Source: Tomocerus qinae
Lineage: Eukaryota; Arthropoda; Collembola; Entomobryomorpha; Tomoceridae
Length of the DNA stretch: 64,000 bases
NCBI GenBank assembly: GCA_020055645.1
Contig: CM034548.1
Coordinates: forward strand, 37,874,296-37,938,295
Direction of reading: 5' to 3'
Position numbers and translations under genes: made by a program. Positions 2,099 through 61,970 of the stretch are shown here, one piece after another; positions within the stretch are counted from its first letter, which is position 1; each line of letters opens with the position of its first letter. The notes beneath the pieces were generated by a model. The model saw only the letters and a program-made list of their open reading frames with translations, was not told where the DNA came from and did not search any database.

Positions 2099-2742
2099 GA
2101 TTCATAAATCGACATCTGACCATGTAATGCTTGATTTCATCAGTAGGTACAAGAATTGAAAAATCTCAAATGGTTGAGTTATTTAAAGCGAATGGAAGTA
2201 ACCATAAAAACATCTGGGGGGAGGGGAGTTAGTGGATTCAAATCTAATTGTATGTAACTGTTCTGTACTGTGTTGACAGCTGTCCCCAAATCCCAATAGA
2301 TATTCCCCACTTTCCCCCTGTAAACATTGGCAATCCAATCCAACTTTAAAATATCCCTTGTACCGTTGTACCGTGACTCTCTTTCCATTAATTAGATGGA
2401 TTGTTATTTTTGATGTTCCTGCGATGTCTGATTGTGGTAAATGTTATCTCGTTAGTAAGTAAATTGGATCTGCGTGAACATAAGTATTGTAGTGTGTAGT
2501 CAGTATTACTTTTAATTTTAGTAGGAAAGTAGGCTGGCAATGAGGAAATCATGTATTTTCTAAGATACATACATGCAAAGATATTAAATGTAGATCTGTT
2601 GAGTTGCACGATGATCTGATCCATAGGTGAAAATTGCATACGCAATAAAATATCCTTCTCTGAAAAATATAGCGTGTGCACCTTCTACATGACTTTGTAT
2701 GTTTGATAAAACTAGGATTCAATCAGAAGGATAAATGGGCAA
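2099..2742. other. Intergenic stretch between INTS12-like gene and DIRS element
   Basis: No coding exon, RNA gene or clear repeat is visible. The short open frames here on the minus strand have no recognisable content. Confidence 0.5.
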
Positions 2743-2923
2743 TTAAACAATTAAACGAACACATGATGTTCGATTGTAATTCTATGAGGACGACTTATGG
2801 GAAGGGGTTATATTATATTACTAAGTAGTAGACCTCTACTTTCCGCGATAGACCACACTATTTCAAAGAAAGAAAAGACGCGCCATTGCGCTTCCAATAC
2901 AGCCTCTATCCACTCTAGAACGC
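2743..2923. repeat. Right inverted terminal repeat of the DIRS-like element, with 36-bp extension
   Basis: Positions 2779-2923 match the reverse complement of 6543-6687 almost throughout; differences are concentrated in the outer 30 bp. The outermost 36 bp (2743-2778) are absent from the left repeat, like the right-end extension of DIRS1. The outer block 2743-2812 is exactly complementary to 3001-3070 in the internal complementary region. Confidence 0.85.
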
Positions 2924-3000
2924 CATTAATTTCAAAGATGTTTGCATGAAAAAAGGGGTTGTATTTCTTTTAAAAAATACTTTTTGATGGGCAGGGTGGG

Positions 3001-3119
3001 TATAACCCCTTCCCATAAGTCGTCCTCATAGAATTACAATCGAACATCATGTGTTCGTTTAATTGTTTAATTCTATTTCGGACGACTTATGTTCGGGGTT
3101 ATATTATATTACTAAGTAG
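3001..3119. repeat. Internal complementary region (ICR) of the DIRS-like element
   Basis: Positions 3001-3070 are the reverse complement of the right terminus 2743-2812, and 3069-3119 copy the left terminus (reverse complement of about 6637-6687). The two ends are thus fused head to head. In the DIRS1 model the ICR templates completion of the termini and forms the circle junction. The end-specific differences (GAGGACGACTTATGGGAAG versus TTCGGACGACTTATGTTCG) are each reproduced in the correct half. Confidence 0.88.
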
Positions 3120-3239
3120 ATGTTCAAATAACATGCAAACAATATTACACGAGTTCCAAAAATGGTAGCATTATTGTATATTATTCTATGAATGTTATAC
3201 TTGACATGAGCTATACAGTAGAAAGTAACACCGATTGTG

Positions 3240-4219
3240 CAAAGTCAGTATTGTAGGCTATAGGCCGATTGTAGAACTTTGCGAACACCATTGAATTCGG
3301 TGTCCAACCGGCAGTCTTCCGAATGACGTTCAAATCTACGCCGTTTTCGACGCCGTAGATGTGGCGACATGGCGTGTGCTATGTGCTGAGAATATTGAAA
3401 TGTCAACTCCACATAAACCCAAAGCGTGCTTTATCCATCGAGAGATAGTTTGTGACGAAACAGCTTTATGTGGCTTCTTCAGACCTATTAACACATTTGA
3501 GACATTTCCTCTGATATTTTCTGTTCTCAACAGGTATTCTTGTAGGGTTGTGGCAACACAAAGTTCAGGATGGGACGTAAAACGTGGCAGGCAGAGGCAG
3601 GGCTGCGGTCTGCCAATGCCCGAGGTTTTGATTCGATCAGTAATCAAAATATCGATGCCATTTGGTGTTTCTTTAATGTTTTCTAATTTCATTAAGGCAA
3701 ATGACTGGACTCTATGGGCGGTAGCCAAAGCGAGTAATAAAGAAAGTTTATAAGAAAGCTTCTCTAAGGAAATTGTGTTCAGAGGATACCAAGCAGTAAT
3801 TTCCTTGATAACTACCGCTGGGTCCCACAAGGTTTGATACCGTGATTGTGGAGGCCTAATCTTAGAAGCCGCTTTTAACAATCTTTTTATTCGGAGATCT
3901 TCACCAAATGGTTGGTTATTTGTAGTTGGTAGAATAAGAGACAGCGCAGAGCGAGTTGTGTTTAAGGTAGCATAGCTACAACCACCATCTAATTTTTTCT
4001 TCAGAAAAGTGATGACATCTGAAAAGTCAGGATAAAAAACGAGTGGTTCTTTTCCACTGTTATACTCCACCAACCTTTTAGAGCTGAAGAGTACTGCTTT
4101 AGCGATGAACTTGACAAAGACTCGATCATTATTCTAGCACTATCGATAGGAACTTGTTTCCTTATAAATGCTTGTAGGATAACTTCACTGCCACCAGGGA
4201 AAGTTGGTCCGCTATTCAA
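3240..4219 (-). pseudogene. Broken tyrosine recombinase ORF of the DIRS-like element
   Basis: Three consecutive pieces in different frames. Piece 1 (4219 to about 4070) has the N-terminal SLSSSSLKQYSSALKGWW core-binding motif typical of DIRS recombinases. Piece 2 (4073-3336, 245 codons) carries the AHRVQ arginine box and the HSTRHVA box (HxxR). Piece 3 lies after a stop caused by a one-base slip in an A-run near 3350; in the shifted frame is the KFYNRP segment whose tyrosine codon (3273-3271) is the likely catalytic nucleophile. Functionally the enzyme would integrate the circular DNA copy. Two frameshifts make it inactive as it stands. Confidence 0.8.
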
Positions 4220-5055
4220 TGTCTTGTGCTAAATGGAGATAATAAAAGATCTTCACTTGATGAAAATATTAACCATCTGTCTTTTGCTAACTTAGCAAAA
4301 AGAGGATACCAATGCTGTGATGGCCACTAGGATGTGATGCCATTACGAACAGCTCCCCATCCGGAATGTGAGCATCCGTAAAAATTACCCATTGAAAACA
4401 GTCGTTTCTAATAGGGCCGATACCAAATTCCAATTCAAATCCTACTTAGATTGGCCACTTTATTTTATGACAGTGTCGAAATCGTTATCAGACTTTCGCA
4501 AAGCATCGCATTTTCTTTTCCAAAATTTTTAGTATACAATATACAAAAAGAAAAGGCATAGCGGACTGAAATAAGTTGGCCTATCAGTTGCGCAAAATCT
4601 CTTATTGTGCAACATGTGCTATTAATAAAACGTTCTACGTTCTTCGCAATCTCTTTCCTTTTTCCTGTGGTGATACTGATCTCGTAACATTTTGAATTAA
4701 TTACGTAAACGAGATATTAAAAAATAGGCATCTTGAAGGTCGGTAGTTGCCATATAGCCCTTCTCACTAGTTGCATTGCAGATGGAACATCTGTCAACTT
4801 AAAGTGAGGAGGGTCAATGAAATTATTAAGATTTTTTAGGTTTATTATAAACCTAGAGTTTCCGTTTTTCTTGGGAACAAGAAAGTAGTAAGAAATAATT
4901 TCATTGTTAGAAATAATTTCATTCATAGAGCATAATTCAATAGCCCCTTTTGAGAGAAGATCATTGATAGACGCTTGCATCTTCGTCGTTTCTGTAGGAC
5001 TTAATTCTGGCTCACCAGAGACATAAATTTGTTTAGGCTGACTGTTAACCGGCAC
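4220..5055 (-). pseudogene. Remnants of reverse transcriptase, RNase H and downstream region of the DIRS-like element
   Basis: From 5055 down, the frame shows a DIRS/Ty3-type RT N-terminus (LLSKGAIE, then FLVPKKNGNSRFIINLKNLN) to about 4740. A frame change there moves RT motif A (ATTDLQDAYF) to another frame at about 4740-4710, after which the RT ends abruptly; the YxDD catalytic block is not found. On the same strand near 4386-4340 a CSHSGWGAVRNG stretch resembles the RNase H segment of DIRS elements, followed by a WPSQHWYPLFAKLAK-type stretch that usually lies just before the recombinase. The interior therefore lost most of the RT palm and has several stops. Confidence 0.72.
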
Positions 5056-5122
5056 CCTGTACCCTTGTAACCGACCTAAAACTACTGGAGTAGCCTTCTT
5101 GGAATTATTACCTGATCTGAAG

Positions 5123-6277
5123 CTATTTGCGATAGCTTGTTTTCTTCTGCCCGCCGTACTGACGATAGGGTTTCGGCTGCGACGGGCGTTTGAAGTTTAA
5201 AGACTCCGAATTTGCTGTTGTGGATGTGCGAGGATTTTTCGATCCACTATTGTTGCTTGTTCTGGTGTTAGGTTTAGATTTCTCCTGTAAATCCAAAGCC
5301 GATTTTTCGATCTCTTTTGCTGTTTTAATACGTTGAGTAAGATCAGCTCCAAAGAGATACTCATCTACTAGCCCAGATTCCGCTGCTTTTCTCATACCTT
5401 GCTTTAAGCTTGGTAACAAAGCTGAACGTCGCTTAAAGGACAAATTGTGATGTAGGTCACAAAGTAAACGTCCTGAATCGCCCAAGGAGCGATAAATGTC
5501 TTTAAAATCTTTTTGATTTTGAAGGGCTAGCATTAAATTCAAACCAGAACCTAAAGCTGAAACCGCTATTGAGACTTGTGAATGAATTTGGGCCATTTGA
5601 TCATCCTTCTTCTTGGAATCGTTTTGAAGAAAGCCATCAAACTCTACGTTTAGCTTTGGTACGGAGAGAAATTTTGAGTTTTCCGGGACCGGATATTTCT
5701 TGGAAATATTTGCACGGTCATCGGCCATTAGGCCGTCCTCAACAATCGGTTTCCAACGAGATAAGATCTCGGAATGCAGCGGGGTGCCGTACTCTATTTT
5801 CTTCTCTGGAGCACTTCCCAATGATTCCAATATCTCGTCATCCACAGAGATATGTAGCTCCAGACTATCATTGTCGATAGCAGATTTGTCGGTAGCAGGA
5901 ACACCGTGTCGCGAAGCGATACTGTGTAATGACGAATCGTCAGATTCGGCACTGCTTGCTCTGTCTCTCGTCAAAGTACCCTTGTCCGTCTCGAAGAGAT
6001 GGACGGGCTTTGAATTCGACTCGACGAGTTGAATTCGTTTTTCGGTCTCCAGTTTTTCCAATCTACTGAGTATTTCCCTATAAATACCAGTGGATGAGGA
6101 TTCACTTCTTGAATAGGTTGACCGATGACGAGACCGACTTCGAGTAGGGCTCCTGCTGCGAGATCGTCGAGTAGAACGCGATGAGCGATCAGTTTCGGAA
6201 TGACGATCTCGATGACGACGGTTATGACTTCTTTCTTCATAATGACGATGTTTTCTATCTCGATGTCTTCCGCTCAT
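5123..6277 (-). CDS. gag: Gag-like ORF of the DIRS-like element
   Basis: Open for 384 codons from ATG at 6277 (MSGRHRDRKHRHYEERSH). The frame is open upstream to 6358, but 6277 is the better start. Residues 1-70 are an arginine/serine-rich basic tract, followed by a predicted coiled coil (YREILSRLEKLETEK), an acidic serine-rich linker, an alpha-helical middle (about 190-300) and a basic, serine/proline-rich C-terminus. This layout suits a nucleic-acid-binding structural protein in the gag position of a DIRS element; there is no zinc knuckle. It is the only intact frame of the element, and no frameshift or stop is seen. Confidence 0.7.
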   Translation of the reverse strand: MSGRHRDRKHRHYEERSHNRRHRDRHSETDRSSRSTRRSRSRSPTRSRSRHRSTYSRSESSSTGIYREILSRLEKLETEKRIQLVESNSKPVHLFETDKGTLTRDRASSAESDDSSLHSIASRHGVPATDKSAIDNDSLELHISVDDEILESLGSAPEKKIEYGTPLHSEILSRWKPIVEDGLMADDRANISKKYPVPENSKFLSVPKLNVEFDGFLQNDSKKKDDQMAQIHSQVSIAVSALGSGLNLMLALQNQKDFKDIYRSLGDSGRLLCDLHHNLSFKRRSALLPSLKQGMRKAAESGLVDEYLFGADLTQRIKTAKEIEKSALDLQEKSKPNTRTSNNSGSKNPRTSTTANSESLNFKRPSQPKPYRQYGGQKKTSYRK

Positions 6278-6542
6278 GTCTGTAGGGATTCTAATAAATG
6301 TCAATATTAATTCTGATGAATGACAAAATATCCTTACTACTACCACGTGTAATATCAATATTATTTACAAGAGTAAAGGATAATACAAATATCACATTTT
6401 CATACAATTGCAAATATTTATGAGAAAAACATACCACCCCACCGAATTTACCGATATATCTTCGTAAAAACTGAAAACTGAAGATTTTTCAGGAGGGATA
6501 ATTAGGCTGCGTGTGGTTGCTATCACACAAAGAGAAGTAATA

Positions 6543-6687
6543 GCGTTCTAGAGTGGATAGAGGCTGTATTGGAAGCGCAATGGCGCGTCTTTTCTTTCTT
6601 TGAAATAGTGTGGTCTATCGCGGAAAGTAGAGGTCTACTACTTAGTAATATAATATAACCCCGAACATAAGTCGTCCGAAATAGAAT
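6543..6687. repeat. Left inverted terminal repeat of the DIRS-like element
   Basis: 145 bp, inverted relative to 2779-2923. Near-identical inside; the outer part carries the left-specific TTC variants that are also found in the ICR. Confidence 0.85.
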
Positions 6688-9600
6688 CGCAGTTAACCGT
6701 GATAATGATAATATTGGGAATGAAGAAATTTCTGGTGCAAACTAAGTCTAATCAGTTTTCCTTTAATAAGCACTGCAAAATGTAAGGTATTGTAACATTC
6801 GTGCTAAATGGATAGTCCACGAAAGTAAGTAAAATGTGCAGCTTTATAGGAGAGAATGCTTTTCAAAACCATTAATTATCTTTTCTCCTTGAGATACAGA
6901 TATTTGGAACGTTTGTGATACATATTATATGGAAACTGATATATGATGCAGCTGAGAAGCTCGTTCTATAAGGTCATTAGAATCAAAGAGGTCGTATAGT
7001 TATAGTCTTAATACCCAAGTAGTTTTATTTCATTAGTTTCCCCATTAGAGAATTTGTATTAGTTACCATAACTCTAGAGGACAGATTTTATTAATTGTCT
7101 ATATCTCCATATCTCATCTGTTTAAAATATCCATAGCATAGAATTTTAATTCTAAAGTATTAATGGATTCTAACGTTACCATCGAAGAGCTCTAAATCAA
7201 ATCTCAGTTAGAATGTAGAGTAGTTATTAAAATGTATATTAGTAATTATAGATCTGTTAAGTATTTGTTAGATGCCGTCACACTAATGTTACCTGTAGCT
7301 CTAATTAATTTGTGTTTTGTTATATATTTTTATCTTCAGATCATTCAGTAAGCACAAAGAGTTTTTCCCACTGGGCAATACCAAACCTGCTAATTAAATA
7401 TAAAAATGCTATATTTATGTACATCATCACCAAGTAAGAGTTTCTCATAGTATTTTGCTAGATGCAAATTTTTCTGGCTGCGTCACACCTGTAATTACGC
7501 TACCAAGTTGCATCTGCCAAGAGATTCTAATCTTCTGTTTAGTTTGCTAGTCTAGTCGTAAGATTAAAATGTGCCAAAAAGCAAATTACTGATACTGCAA
7601 CACGCTGAGCACTGTACAAAGGAGTGAGGGATTTTTGCCCTAAATGTTGACAAGATGTGATGTAAAGGTGAAGGAAAATTTAATCTTGAGTGAAAACAAT
7701 TTATTCAGCATTTTTGTAGTGCACATGCTAAAAACCAAAAGTAATAACAACGGACTGAATGCAGTTTATAGGCTCTATATTCAGAAATTGTTTGCAGAAA
7801 TTTGAATTAAAAATCATTTTTACCTTTTTCATTTAATGTCTTCCTCCACCTATTCAAACAGACTTGACTTGCATACAAAGATGTATTTTTCAAACGTGAG
7901 AAACTCAGTTTCATACAAGACTAAATCTGAAAAGATATTCGAAAGTTTTGCGACGTGTTTAAAGTTTTATTACTACAGTTCTTTCTTTTCGGTGGAAAAG
8001 TTAAAGTTCCTTAATATTGATTAAGATGTTGACTTGTTTAACGTATTTTTGTTATAGCATGAAATTCAGTCTATTTGAAGAAAATATATTTTCAGTCTGT
8101 CGAATGTGTTTTATGTATATATGCAGGAAAAAATTCTAGTTATTTCTCAATAGGTGAATTGCGGCACAAGGTAATTTATTATTCTAAATATTATTTTGCT
8201 TGCCGGTTATTAACAGAAGGAAGCTATTTACCAGATTACCACCAACTCTAAATAATCCACATAAATATTGCATTTTTAAACAACACGATCGATCGAAAAG
8301 ATAAGCTACACGTGTAAAAGTAAAAAAGTTTGGTAAAAATGAAATTATTAGATCTACTGTAGTATATGTTCTAATGTCTAATATGTATTGTAACGCTCTT
8401 TATCCATTAAATAGATTGCTTCATGATGTCATTCTAAATGTATTTAGCGGTATGGATATAAATAAGTTAAATAAAAATTTAAGGATTTGATGTTTAAAAA
8501 AATTAAGATAAATGTCTGGTTGTAGCCAAGCTTTGCTTCCTAATTATTATGTGGTGTCTCTATATTATAACTTATGTATAATTTTGATTTGAATGACCGG
8601 TTCACCTAAAGAAGTTAGTCCTTCTCTCTGGGTGGCAATTACTATGGTAATTTTCTGACTGGACAATGACATCTTTCCATGGATCATGTCATAAGCCATA
8701 GCCAACAGGACTGAACATGTCATTCAGATAATTTTCTGAAATGTACTCTTTTATTAAACCTTTTGCTAATGATAAGTAACAATCTAAATGTATGTAGGTA
8801 GGATGTAATTGCTTAATTAACTCTAAATGGACACGTAGTATTAACCCCGGTTTAAAATAATAATTTGGATGTTAAGTTCTGTCATTTTAATAATGATGAT
8901 GGTTGATGGCTAATTGTAACTTCGTGGAAACTTAATCTTCTCTCTGTTAGATTAAATGTCTACACATTGTCTATGTACTTACTAATACTGTTACGGATAA
9001 TGAGAAATTGTAGGATGCTTTTCAAATGCTTTGATGTATTTAACAGTAATTTGTGTAGACATTAAGCTCTGTCGCTAAATATCAATAAGTAGTGTAAATT
9101 GTATCTTCGACAACCCATTGTAATCAATGGGAAAGGTAGCAACAGGAAAGACTAGATCAATGCCAATGGTTGTGTATTGTATGTACTACTAAATATACAG
9201 CATTGTCATCAAAGATCTGTAATCAGTAACTTATACTGTTACGTACTTACATACAACTAGGTGTGTACTGTATTCTGTATAGTGTGTAGTCAAGTAGAAT
9301 AAGATAATGAGGTGCTCTTAACATTTTGTCATCTCAAGTCAAGTAAACCCTGTCGTCCAACTCAAAAAAGAAACTGGAGCAAACATCATCAGTGATTTAA
9401 ATCTATAACATCATTCTGAAGCAAAACCATGAATTTTTAAAGGCAGGTTTACAGGGCTAAAAGTTGTCTCATTGATTGTCAATGTAGTGTATCTCTGCAG
9501 AATTGCAACAATTAATATTGAATGCTTACTATATAGCCGTGTAAACCTAATAGACATGTAGCTACCTAATAGTTATGCAACTATCATCCTAATTATATTA

Positions 9601-26086: not shown

Positions 26087-26135
26087 ACTAACATTGCTTT
26101 CCTAGACGAAATTCGTCTAGGAAAGTAATATTAGT
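26087..26135. repeat. Near-perfect 49-bp palindrome upstream of the membrane-protein gene
   Basis: The core CTTTCCTAGACGAA is followed after one base by its exact reverse complement, and the outer 10 bp per side match with two mismatches. It begins about 138 bp upstream of the ATG at 25949, so it may lie in that gene's promoter or 5' UTR. It could be a small foldback element or a regulatory site. Confidence 0.6.
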
Positions 26136-33744: not shown

Positions 33745-35156
33745 ATGGGATCAACCTCAAAAGCCGATGATTCTGATTCACATGGAAAAAATACTAAAGG
33801 AGACCATTTAAAAGAAAAATTAAAACTGAAGAAGCAAGAGAGAAAACAATTAAAAAAGCAACTGAAGGAAGAAAACACATTAAAAAAATATAAACCAAAG
33901 GATTCTGAAGCAGAAAAAAAGCACACGACCAATATAAATAGAGTGGAGGATGACAATGTTAGCGAGACAGAATGCAGTGCACAAGATGATAAAACAGAAG
34001 GTCAAGGAAGACATTACACTGTCAGCATTGCAGTTTCCGGCTCCATCGTGGACAATGCCCAATCTCCAGTTCTGAAAGCATACCTTGCAGGTCAGATTGC
34101 TAGATCTGCGGCTATTTTCAATGTAGACGAAATAATTGTGTTTGACGACACCGGAGGTCACGGGAAAAAAGCTTGCGAACATATGGCCAGGATCCTACAA
34201 TTTTTAGAATGCCCTCAATATTTAAGAAAGACGCTGTTTCCCTTACACCCTGATCTGCAATATACCGGAGTTATCAGCCCATTAGACCTTCCTCATCATC
34301 TTCGCCGAGACGAGGCCCTACCCTACCGGTAATTAAAATAAAAACTTCTTGATTGTAAATTGTATTCTAATTTTGTAGTGTTGATCATTGGTGGCCTATA
34401 CCTACACCTTAAATCACATTGTTTCAACACTTAATCATTCTGATTCTTAATCACTGTATTATCTTCTATATCGAAGATATCTAACTTTAAATTAAAATCA
34501 CTTTAATAGCCTCGGAAATTTGTCAATTCTTGTCATTTGTGAATTCATCTAGGTTGTCTGTAAAATTGTATTTTTGTAATGTTAATAGAGAAGGTGTTGT
34601 GTCCAATCGTCCAACAAAAGAAGGAACAGATGTCTCCTACATTTATGTTGGCCTAGAAAAAGACTGTCAAGTTCAGAAAAGTCTACCCGACGGTTTGAGA
34701 GTGACAGTAAAATTCAACAACCCTTCAACAGAATACATTTTGAGCCAGAGAGGAAAATTGAAAGGAGAAATCGTGTCCCCACAGTCCCCTAGAGCAGAAC
34801 GTGGCTTGTACTGGGGCTACAGTGTCAGAGTAGCCGACTCGTTGTCGAAGATTTTTTCTCAATCTACGTTTAAAGAAGGATACGATGTTACTATTGGAAC
34901 TTCCGAAAAAGGTTCATCAGTAGACAGTTTAAAAATCTCGGAATCTGCGAAACACATCTTAATAGTTTTTGGTGGGGTTGAAGGACTGGAATACGCTTTA
35001 GAGAATGATGAAGCTGTCAAGGAAGACGAAGTTCAGGCTCTGTTTGATTATTATGTAAATACTTGTCCTCATCAAGGTTCCAGAACTATCAGAACTGAAG
35101 AAGCTATTTTGATATCTATGGCCGCAATCAGTTCAAAATTCAAATGTATATACTGA
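33745..35156 (+). CDS. SPOUT1: SPOUT1 (C9orf114 family) putative RNA methyltransferase
   Basis: Two exons: 33745-34328 and 34589-35156, joined inside an arginine codon (LPYR-EGVV), 383 aa, close to the length of the human protein. The start has a GCCATGG context. Residues 1-70 are very lysine-rich, likely a nucleolar or RNA-binding tail and partly coiled coil. The SPOUT fold begins with HYTVSIAVSGSIVDNAQS; typical family blocks follow (YLAGQIARSAAIFNVDEIIV, LQYTGVISPLDLPHHLR, EGTDVSYIYVGLEKD, RGLYWGYSVRVADSLS). The knot segment ILIVFGGVEGLE and the end TEEAILISMAAI form the AdoMet-binding trefoil region. Human SPOUT1 associates with kinetochores and spindle poles and was reported to act on miRNA/rRNA; that role is family knowledge. 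Confidence 0.93.
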
Positions 35157-35183
35157 TGATATTTTATAATTTTTTCTTTTAAA

Positions 35184-35590
35184 TTCTACTTATAAAGATG
35201 TACGTTTAAACTGATAAAATATCCATAGTATAGTCATAGGCTATAGTATAAGTAATCTAAATATCTATAATATATAATCTAAATATCCGTAATCAATAAG
35301 TAATAATCTACAGCATAGCATTTGAGAATTTATAATCATTCTGTTATATGTTTGTTATCTAAGTTATTAGTTATTGTATTGTATTATTTATTCTACTTAT
35401 AAAGATGTACGTTTAAATTGATAAAATATCCTTAGTATAGTCATAGTCTATAGTATAAGTAATCTAAATATCTATAATCAGTAATCTAAATATCCGTAAT
35501 CTATAAGTAATAATCTATAGTATAGCATTTGAGAATTTATAATCATTCTGTTATGTTTGTTACCTAAGTTATTTTATTGTATTATTTATT
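35184..35590. repeat. 207-bp tandem duplication in the SPOUT1 3' UTR
   Basis: The segment starting TTCTACTTATAAAGATGTAC at 35184 recurs at 35391, giving a period of 207 bp over two units with a handful of substitutions and small indels. Internally there are shorter echoes (AATCTAAATAT repeated). It lies between the SPOUT1 stop and its poly(A) signal, so both copies would be in the mRNA. Confidence 0.85.
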
Positions 35591-51120: not shown

Positions 51121-53201
51121 TCAAGTTTCTTCTTCATTTTCTCTTGCTAATAAGCCTGTACTGAAAAACCGCACATCTTCGTCTGGATCGTTGTGAAGCT
51201 TCCGCAGTGTGCGCATTAAAGTTTCCTTTGCAGGATTGTTAGAATCACAGTAGTATTCTGTTCACAAAAATGATACCGATTATACAACTATAGTTATTAG
51301 TAGACATCACAAGTTTAAAAAATATATTTTCTCAAGCATTTACCCTTGGCTGAGACATATTTCTGCATCGTTTTGGCGACTACGAGACGAACATTAGGAA
51401 CGCGGTCAAAACTGAGATCAATTAAGTAAGGTAAAACTTGAATATTGAATTGATTGGGCGATAGAGCACTTAATTCCAAAAATTGACCGGAAAGGCTAGC
51501 GTAGGTCTGTCGCTTGAACCATTTGTCGCTGTCGCATAGTTTTTTAACCAGTTCCAGAAGTAATTCTTCAACTACACTCGTTTTTCCTCCTTCAGAGTTA
51601 CTCTTACTAAATCCGTTCAACTGTTTAATGAAGTAAGCAACCTAAATATCCCAAAAAATGGACATTAATTAGTACCTATAATTTATTTAATGGACTAGGA
51701 CAATAGTACAGGATTTCTTACCACTTCAACGGCTTTTATGCGAACTTCCGCCACATTATCCAAAACCAAATTTAAAGAAATGGGCCAAAGATGTGTAACT
51801 ACGTCTTCAGGCTCAAATATTTCACTTAATAGTTGAAGTTGATCTGCCAAATCCAATCGGAAGCGCCAACCGAGTTTATTCTCCATTTGTAAAAAATTTG
51901 GAAGCGTGTGGAGACATTTTTCACGGTCTTCCTTCCCCAGAACCTGCAGACCCAATAATTTTGTTACATACTTTCTCCAACTGTCCCTTCTTAAGCATAT
52001 TATGTAGTATTTCTTACCTTGACAAACATTGATAAGTTTTTAAGTATCCCAACTCGGACTTCGTCAAGGTCATTTGTAAGGGTTATATAAAACGGTAGCA
52101 AATCTCTTCCTGCTAACTCGGGGCCTACAACTCTAGCTATTTCGTGCAAACTGGCAGCCAAAGTGTACCTAAATGTGCTCTGAAATTTAAAAATGTCAAC
52201 TGTACTGTTAGTTATCAGTCATACATTTATTTATACACAACGATTGAAAGGCATATATTATATTTTATATTATATTATTATCATATCATATTTACCTCCT
52301 CACTACGTATCAAGCCTCCGTAACAATCTAGAAGCATGGACCACTTCTGTGGGTCAAGTCTATTGGCCGGGCCCATGTCACCTGTCCCATCATCATGTTT
52401 TGACGTATTGTACAAATACAAGTGGCTTAGAGTAGATACAAAATCCAGTATTTCGTCATCAGACACAAGCTGTGGAGAAGTTAAAGACTCTGTCGAAACA
52501 TTCTTATGAAGTTCGCCATCCTCGTTTAAGAAATACTCCCAATTGATTTCTTCGATGTTCTGAAAATTGCTATTCTTTGCTAGTGAAGCATCGAGTGGAC
52601 GTTTCGCCCTTAATTCGATGAGTAATTCTTGAACTGGAAGACACCAGTAAGTTAAATCATTGAAGACAACTTCGCAGTTCGTTTCTTTCACATTCTGTAA
52701 ATTATTATTGCTTTCTTGTGAAGCATCGGCTGGACATTCCATATGGGGATCCGCATTTAATTCGATGAGTAATTCTTTAACCGGGAGACACCAATAGCTA
52801 AAATCATTGAAGACAATTTCGCAATTTTTTTCTCTGATATTCTTTTTATTATTAGTTTTTGTTTGTGAATCATCTTCTGGACATTTCATAGGGAGATTCG
52901 CCTTTACTTCGATGGCAAAATCTTGAACCGGAAGACGCCAATAGGCAAAGTCATAGTACTCATTTTCACAGATTATTTCTTTGACATTCGGTATATTATT
53001 ATTATTTCCAAGAGAAGCATCGGCTTGATTTGGAGGGCGATTTGTATTTAATTCGATGAGTAATTCTGGAACCGGTAGACGCCAAAAGTTCAAATCATAC
53101 CCAGAAAATGAACTTATATCTCTATTAGCATTCCCTGCCTCCATCTTAGTATCATCTTCGTGAATAAGACTGGGCTTTGGCTGGCTGTCAATGGTGGTCA
53201 T
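51121..53201 (-). CDS. PPP4R1-like protein (C-terminal half only) with four W-x-L-P-V repeats
   Basis: Five exons: 53201-52296, 52179-52018, 51943-51722, 51641-51344, 51257-51121; phases agree, 574 aa. Residues about 305-570 are HEAT repeats resembling the C-terminal half of PPP4R1 (PP4 regulatory subunit 1): LAASLHEIARVVGPELAGRD, FYITLTNDLDEVRVGILKNL, GWRFRLDLADQLQLLSEIF, DRVPNVRLVVAKTMQKYV. Residues 38-190 hold four tandem units of about 49 aa built around FWRLPVPELLIEL, YWRLPVQDF, YWCLPVKELLIEL and YWCLPVQELLIEL (tryptophans at 40, 88, 137, 186). Vertebrate PPP4R1 has a related single FWRTPLPEIDLDIEL-type motif. The N-terminal HEAT array of PPP4R1 (roughly 400 residues) is missing and no exon for it is seen up to 54105. 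It may be a PP4 regulator or a truncated paralogue. Confidence 0.82.
52541..53111 (-). repeat. Four-fold 147-bp coding tandem repeat in the PPP4R1-like gene
   Basis: Within the first exon, units of about 147 bp recur in frame, each with a Y/F-W-x-L-P-V core, an (E)LLIEL stretch, an ADAS-like and Asn-rich spacer, and an NVKE-x-x-CE ending. Units 3 and 4 are the most alike, so the last duplication was probably theirs. Confidence 0.8.
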
Positions 53202-61586: not shown

Positions 61587-61970
61587 TTAAGGTTGGGATA
61601 AGTTGGAGGTTAATACATTGAAATGTCTGTACAAAAATCTCGAGTACTGTTGAATGGAAGTGAAAAGTGTTAATGGAAATTTAAAGTACGGATCTAGACC
61701 TCGGACCCAAGGCTCTTACATTTTCAAAATGTGGCTTGGTGACCGAAAAATCGGCACCGACATTTTCGCGCGGTTTTTTTTAATGGCGCGAAAATTACGA
61801 TCCCGATTTCTCGGTCACCAAGCCACATTTTGAAAATGTAAGAGCCTTGAGTCCGAGGTCTAGATCCGTACTTTAAATATCAAACAAAACCTTTCATTTC
61901 AATTCAGCCGTACTCGAAATTTTTGTACAGACATTTCAATGTAAAAGAGTACAACTTATCCCAACCTTAA
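61587..61970. mobile_element. 384-bp long-hairpin MITE bounded by TTAA
   Basis: The whole element is a near-palindrome. Left end TTAAGGTTGGGATAAGTTG; right end CAACTTATCCCAACCTTAA. Further in, ACATTGAAATGTCTGTAC pairs with GTACAGACATTTCAATGT, and TTAAAGTACGGATCTAGACC pairs with its complement near 61858-61877. The CTTGGTGACCGA blocks also pair, leaving a small central loop around 61775-61790 with GCGCG motifs. Both ends carry TTAA, which would be the target duplication of a piggyBac-type mover if the element proper starts at GGTTGGG. Confidence 0.85.

Follow-up and report, generated by a model that had tools for sequence, protein, structure and literature searches.

A stretch of 64,000 nucleotides of the Tomocerus qinae genome (assembly GCA_020055645.1, contig CM034548.1, positions 37,874,296 to 37,938,295 of the forward strand; hereafter the window) carries at positions 2741-6687 what is very probably a copy of a DIRS1-like tyrosine-recombinase retrotransposon, in which the pol and recombinase genes are defective and the ends would have been rebuilt as in the published model based on an internal complementary region (ICR). 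The element is 3947 bp long, codes on the minus strand and is present as a single copy in the window. A DIRS-type element with an ICR had been predicted from the sequence, and this was borne out: the terminal features fit the DIRS1-like anatomy described by Piednoël 2011 (PMC3266345). The predicted start at 2743 was corrected to 2741, with AAT at 2741-2743 and 6685-6687 (ATT...ATT in coding sense). Due to the minus-strand coding, the window-left end is the right terminus of the element. The parts are listed below with the evidence used for each (ITR, inverted terminal repeat; ORF, open reading frame).

2741-6687, minus strand: whole putative DIRS1-like element, bounded by AAT...AAT (repeats, self comparison)
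2741-2778, minus strand: right extension (rE), complementary to the ICR only
2779-2803, minus strand: right ITR, divergent part (base-by-base comparison)
2804-2923, minus strand: right ITR, conserved part (120/120 against 6543-6662; 126/128 if extended to 2931)
3001-3072, minus strand: right ICR half, rICR (72/72 complementary to 2741-2812)
3070-3072, no strand assigned: 3-bp circular junction, ATT on the plus strand and AAT in coding sense (overlap of the ICR halves; term from PMC3266345)
3070-3119, minus strand: left ICR half, lICR (50/50 complementary to 6638-6687)
3214-3372, minus strand: open stretch with FYNRP, probably the C-terminal end of the recombinase in a different frame (by motif; no Pfam match)
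3336-4073, minus strand: putative tyrosine recombinase ORF, 245 aa, with HSTR (weak matches to Pfam Phage_integrase and PHROG_1)
4290-4716, minus strand: probable RNase H region, several frames with stops (by motifs only; no Pfam match)
4700-5139, minus strand: probable N-terminal remnant of a reverse transcriptase (by motifs only; no Pfam, PDB or NCBIfam support)
5123-6277, minus strand: uninterrupted gag-like ORF of 384 aa from the ATG at 6277 (start rich in Arg/Ser, weak LAP2alpha match)
6543-6662, minus strand: left ITR, conserved part (base-by-base comparison)
6663-6687, minus strand: left ITR, divergent part, 5' end of the element (base-by-base comparison)

Inverted termini and internal complementary region

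The region 2701-6750 was compared with itself and searched with a repeat finder, the self-alignment that had been proposed as a check of the original prediction. Three inverted pairs were obtained: 2804-2931 with 6535-6662 (128 nt, 98%, 126/128), 2741-2812 with 3001-3072 (72/72, ending exactly at 2741/3072) and 3070-3119 with 6638-6687 (50/50, ending exactly at 6687/3070). The longest exact inverted match was 120 nt, whereas 200 first-order Markov simulations of the same 4 kb gave at most 20 nt; an inverted match of this length is not due to chance. When 2701-6750 was searched with blastn against the window (E ≤ 1e-3), matches were found inside the element only, and the two flanks of the insertion have nothing in common beyond the AAT.

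The ITRs comprise 2779-2923 and 6543-6687. Their inner 120 bp (2804-2923 and 6543-6662) are identical; two differences (2924 and 2929) fall in the next 8 bp to 2931/6535, beyond which the likeness stops. The outermost 30 bp of the termini had been predicted to differ; a difference is present, but the differing part is 25 bp long (2779-2803 and 6663-6687). These divergent parts have the 12-mer GGACGACTTATG in common, offset by 1 bp. With both strands counted, the window contains this 12-mer four times, with one occurrence per terminus and one per ICR half. In coding sense, the left terminus consists of 25 bp of divergent ITR (6687-6663) followed by 120 bp of conserved ITR, and the right terminus of 120 bp of conserved ITR, 25 bp of divergent ITR and a 38-bp extension (2778-2741), whose complement is found in the ICR but not in the other terminus. 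A right-end extension found again in the ICR had been noticed before with a length of 36 bp; it spans 2741-2778 (38 bp) at the window-left end, i.e., at the right only in coding sense. By eye, rE was seen to contain the direct repeat AATTAAACAATTAAAC as well as CGAACA-CATGA-TGTTCG, an inverted repeat. Both lie near the element's end and are possibly recombinase sites.

The ICR at 3001-3119 is situated near the 3' end of the element. It consists of the reverse complement of 2741-2812 joined to the reverse complement of 6638-6687, and the two halves overlap at ATT 3070-3072. Each half is a perfect match to its own terminus, also at the positions where the termini differ, just as expected from the earlier claim that the complements of both ends are fused here with their own variants kept. 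Read on the plus strand, 3001-3119 leads from the inside of the right terminus to its last base, through the shared ATT, and from the first base of the left terminus inwards, both termini being in coding sense. A circle of the element would be expected to have this very junction, which here runs in reverse within the coding strand. In a base-by-base comparison, the first and the last trinucleotide of the element proved to be the complement of the 3-bp circular junction.

Comparison with known DIRS1-like elements

The anatomy given for DIRS1-like elements in PMC3266345 includes ITRs with a divergent and a conserved part, a right extension, and a left and a right ICR overlapping on the 3-bp circular junction. 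The two ITRs and the two ICRs share a run of 10 nt or more, the ICR is near the 3' end, and integration occurs at an identical trinucleotide without target duplication. The motif HSTR is reported for 13 of 28 elements. Table 3 of this survey lists part sizes for 27 of the 28 annotated elements and ATT/ATT/AAT in 10 of the 28 rows. All sizes determined here are within the tabulated ranges: divergent ITR 25 bp (8-36), conserved ITR 120 bp (31-304) and rE 38 bp (9-75), as well as the ICR halves of 50-72 bp. Since parts and sizes agree with the published anatomy, the copy is regarded as a further member of the DIRS1-like elements.

Judged by the tabulated sizes only, the nearest element is DpuDIRS3 of Daphnia pulex (PMC3266345, Table 3). 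It likewise has ATT/ATT/AAT, a right extension only and ICR halves meeting on a 3-bp junction, with a divergent/conserved ITR of 24/170 against 25/120 here. However, DpuDIRS3 is 5195 bp long compared to 3947 bp, and the copy described here has a fragmented pol and gave no hit for a methyltransferase. DIRS-1 of Dictyostelium discoideum (PMC5633606; row DIRS1-2 in PMC3266345) is of similar length (3793 bp) and shares the ITRs, an ICR complementary to both ends, the right extension and the tyrosine recombinase. It differs in its TTA/TTA/TAA ends, a conserved ITR of 304 bp, an rE of 24, an ICR of 26-59 and a long ORF overlap.

Coding content

Between 6277 and 5123, the gag-like ORF has no interruption and would encode 384 aa with an Arg/Ser-rich start. 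Its sole Pfam match at E ≤ 1 was LAP2alpha (E = 0.16), which is below the cut-off; LAP2alpha is itself derived from a DIRS1-like gag. No match was obtained for this ORF in PDB.

The ORF at 3336-4073 (245 aa) matched Phage_integrase in Pfam (E = 5e-4, 20.3 bits against a cut-off of 27.1) and the integrase PHROG_1 (E = 3.5e-4), and it contains the HSTR motif. The evidence is weak but concordant, and on this sequence evidence a tyrosine recombinase gene is present. The frame breaks ahead of the probable catalytic tyrosine, which sits in another frame: the segment 3214-3372 contains the motif FYNRP and, although without Pfam match, is taken to be the C-terminal end of the recombinase with this tyrosine. 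Between gag and recombinase, segments resembling reverse transcriptase (RT) and RNase H follow each other in alternating frames with stops. Their presumed identities (RT at 4700-5139, RNase H at 4290-4716) were assigned from motifs only, with no database support, and the minus frames of 3100-5140 lack both YxDD and FxDD. Stops number 26, 27 and 45 in the three frames of 3214-5139. Eight pieces of the pol and recombinase region were scanned against Pfam (E ≤ 10), and besides Phage_integrase (5e-4) only DHU1_N (0.027) and HigB-like_toxin (0.13) were returned, both of which were taken as chance matches.

Assessment of the assignment and alternative elements

Several results weigh against the assignment as a DIRS1-like retrotransposon. 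Both integrase matches of the recombinase ORF are weak, the one in Pfam being under the curated cut-off, and NCBIfam and PDB gave no match for this ORF. For RT, RNase H and methyltransferase, no Pfam support was found in the eight pieces scanned. The RT-like piece had no match in NCBIfam and eight in PDB with E values of 0.14-1.4, which were taken as chance. A fold prediction by AlphaFold2 without alignment was unsuccessful, with a mean predicted local distance difference test (pLDDT) score of 37. Relatives of the recombinase ORF were absent from viral_contigs (0 in 12 pattern stretches) and genome_contigs (0 in 53 stretches), and viral_contigs gave no exact match to a 40-mer from the ITR/ICR. 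As these are viral and prokaryote collections, absence of relatives there says little. Furthermore, the survey pipeline of PMC3266345 demanded RT, recombinase and methyltransferase domains, a screen which this copy would not pass, and an earlier decapod study assigned elements by their methyltransferase. According to a Xenopus study, DIRS-like elements ‘can present’ a methyltransferase, which was seen in 38 of the families evaluated. Because of this figure and because the pol region is broken here, the missing methyltransferase was not taken as decisive either way.

The terminal structure also bears on two other kinds of element. An independent foldback miniature inverted-repeat transposable element (MITE) at 2741-3072, nested at the end of another element, would account for the perfect 72-bp inverted arms, 188 bp apart, and for the strong folding of 2741-3119 as single-stranded DNA (z -18). 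However, the left arm continues as the ITR of the element to 2923, identical to 6543-6662, and the right arm abuts the reverse complement of 6638-6687 with the same 3-bp overlap that bounds the element. No duplication flanking 2741-3072 was seen by eye, and no other copy was found in the window; a nested MITE is therefore considered very improbable. Hardly any probability is given to a PAT- or Ngaro-like element (with split direct repeats) or a Crypton either. Such elements have a tyrosine recombinase in common with this copy, the lack of a visible methyltransferase is as in Ngaro (PMC3266345), and blastn reported a gapped direct match of 81% between 2753-2828 and 3038-3119. Yet the latter is expected from a partly self-complementary extension beside the ICR, the repeats here are inverted ITRs with an ICR, and a gag-like ORF and, judged by motifs, an RT-like remnant are present. 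Ungapped direct repeats of at least 16 nt in 2500-7000 belonged to three families (25, 18 and 16 nt). Split direct repeats of the PAT/Ngaro type were not found among them; the arrangement of ITRs and ICR accounts for both the 25-mer and the gapped 81% match.

Proposed replication and integration

For the DIRS1-like element, the published DIRS1 mechanism is the most likely one. The observations to which it applies are the anatomy, the exact end-specific identity, a recombinase-like ORF, and the AAT found at both termini as well as where the ICR halves overlap. The transcript would lack the outer parts of the ends, and the ICR, with the complements of right and left end joined via the 3-bp junction, would serve as template for the missing bases in cDNA synthesis. 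Because the ICR holds the complements of each end, each end would regain its own variant. The ends would then be joined to give a circle, and the recombinase would cross the AAT junction of the circle with a genomic AAT, a reaction which should leave the element bounded by AAT on both sides without duplicating the target. It is about an even chance that the recombinase and RT of the last round came from another copy. The original prediction had called the ICR ‘direct sequence evidence’ for the replication model, which is overstated: one copy agrees with the model and cannot prove it, and a 2017 review (PMC5633606) describes the model as ‘experimentally not fully proven’.

Order of gene decay and last copying

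The damage to the genes may precede the last copying, as the ends have hardly changed whereas pol and recombinase are fragmented. When the ITR was cut at the first difference, 239 terminal positions (72+47+120) were compared and all were identical, which limits the change since the last copying to at most about 0.63% per copy (95%). With the ITR extended to 2931, 2 of 247 positions differ and the limit is about 1.3%. The comparisons have 37 bases in common and are not fully independent, hence, both limits are approximate. The joint probability of few terminal changes and of pol lesions that all arose after insertion was calculated for 25 settings of lesion count and indel/substitution ratio. 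For the ITR cut at the first difference, the best joint probability ranged from 4.4e-2 (3 lesions, ratio 0.3) to 7e-7 (7 lesions, ratio 0.05), and 0/25 settings exceeded 0.05. For the ITR to 2931, it was 0.24 (3 lesions, ratio 0.3), 1.7e-2 (6 lesions, ratio 0.2) and 1.8e-5 (7 lesions, ratio 0.05), and 6/25 settings exceeded 0.05.

Two histories were considered. The element may already have been broken at its last copying and mobilized by proteins supplied in trans, in which case the ITRs and the ICR, perhaps with gag, would suffice in cis; to this we give slightly less than an even chance. It would explain why the terminal comparisons are free of differences up to the first cut next to a region with stops in every frame and segments in alternating frames, and the low joint probabilities at this cut point the same way. 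The argument is weakened by the two differences added when the ITR is taken to 2931, where the joint probability rises to 0.24, and by the bases shared between the comparisons. Moreover, one of the frame changes (pol to recombinase) may be natural, and gene conversion between the arms could maintain their likeness. Trans-mobilization is not considered established because it depends on the indel ratios assumed, the choice of the ITR boundary and a lesion count made from motifs without a reference. Alternatively, an autonomous copy was inserted fairly recently and decayed in place, the termini having stayed alike by chance or gene conversion, which we likewise rate just short of an even probability. 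As this would predict, the gag-like frame is still open, as is most of the recombinase frame, and with the ITR to 2931 the joint probability is not small at few lesions and a high indel ratio; against it, the value stays below 0.05 in 25/25 settings at the first cut and in 19/25 with the longer ITR. No paper naming non-autonomous, TRIM-like or defective DIRS elements was found in the literature searched, which covered the smaller part of the papers in subscription journals, so the idea may still have been published.

As a single copy, the element is one further DIRS1-like element in a well described superfamily. In a young family with broken enzymes and matching ends, however, a comparison of copies could test the requirements in cis and the co-inheritance of ICR and ends. 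If sister copies share the lesions while their end variants co-vary with the ICR, this would be a natural test of ICR templating.

Other features of the window

A foldback element is located at 61587-61970, with inverted arms of 185 nt (88%) which are 14 nt apart. It starts with TTAAGGTTGGGATAAGTTG and ends with the exact complement CAACTTATCCCAACCTTAA, and looks like a MITE with TTAA ends. An apparently interrupted RNA methyltransferase gene at 33745-35156 has two successive Methyltrn_RNA_3 parts, and directly downstream of it, at 35164-35590, lies a tandem duplication of ~207 bp (91% over 184 nt). The minus-strand ORF at 52281-53201 (306 aa) contains repeated units of a motif like ‘YWCLPVKELLIELNA’ and matches no Pfam family at E ≤ 0.01. 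Finally, a 49-bp palindrome at 26087-26135 has arms which are 92% complementary around a 1-nt centre.

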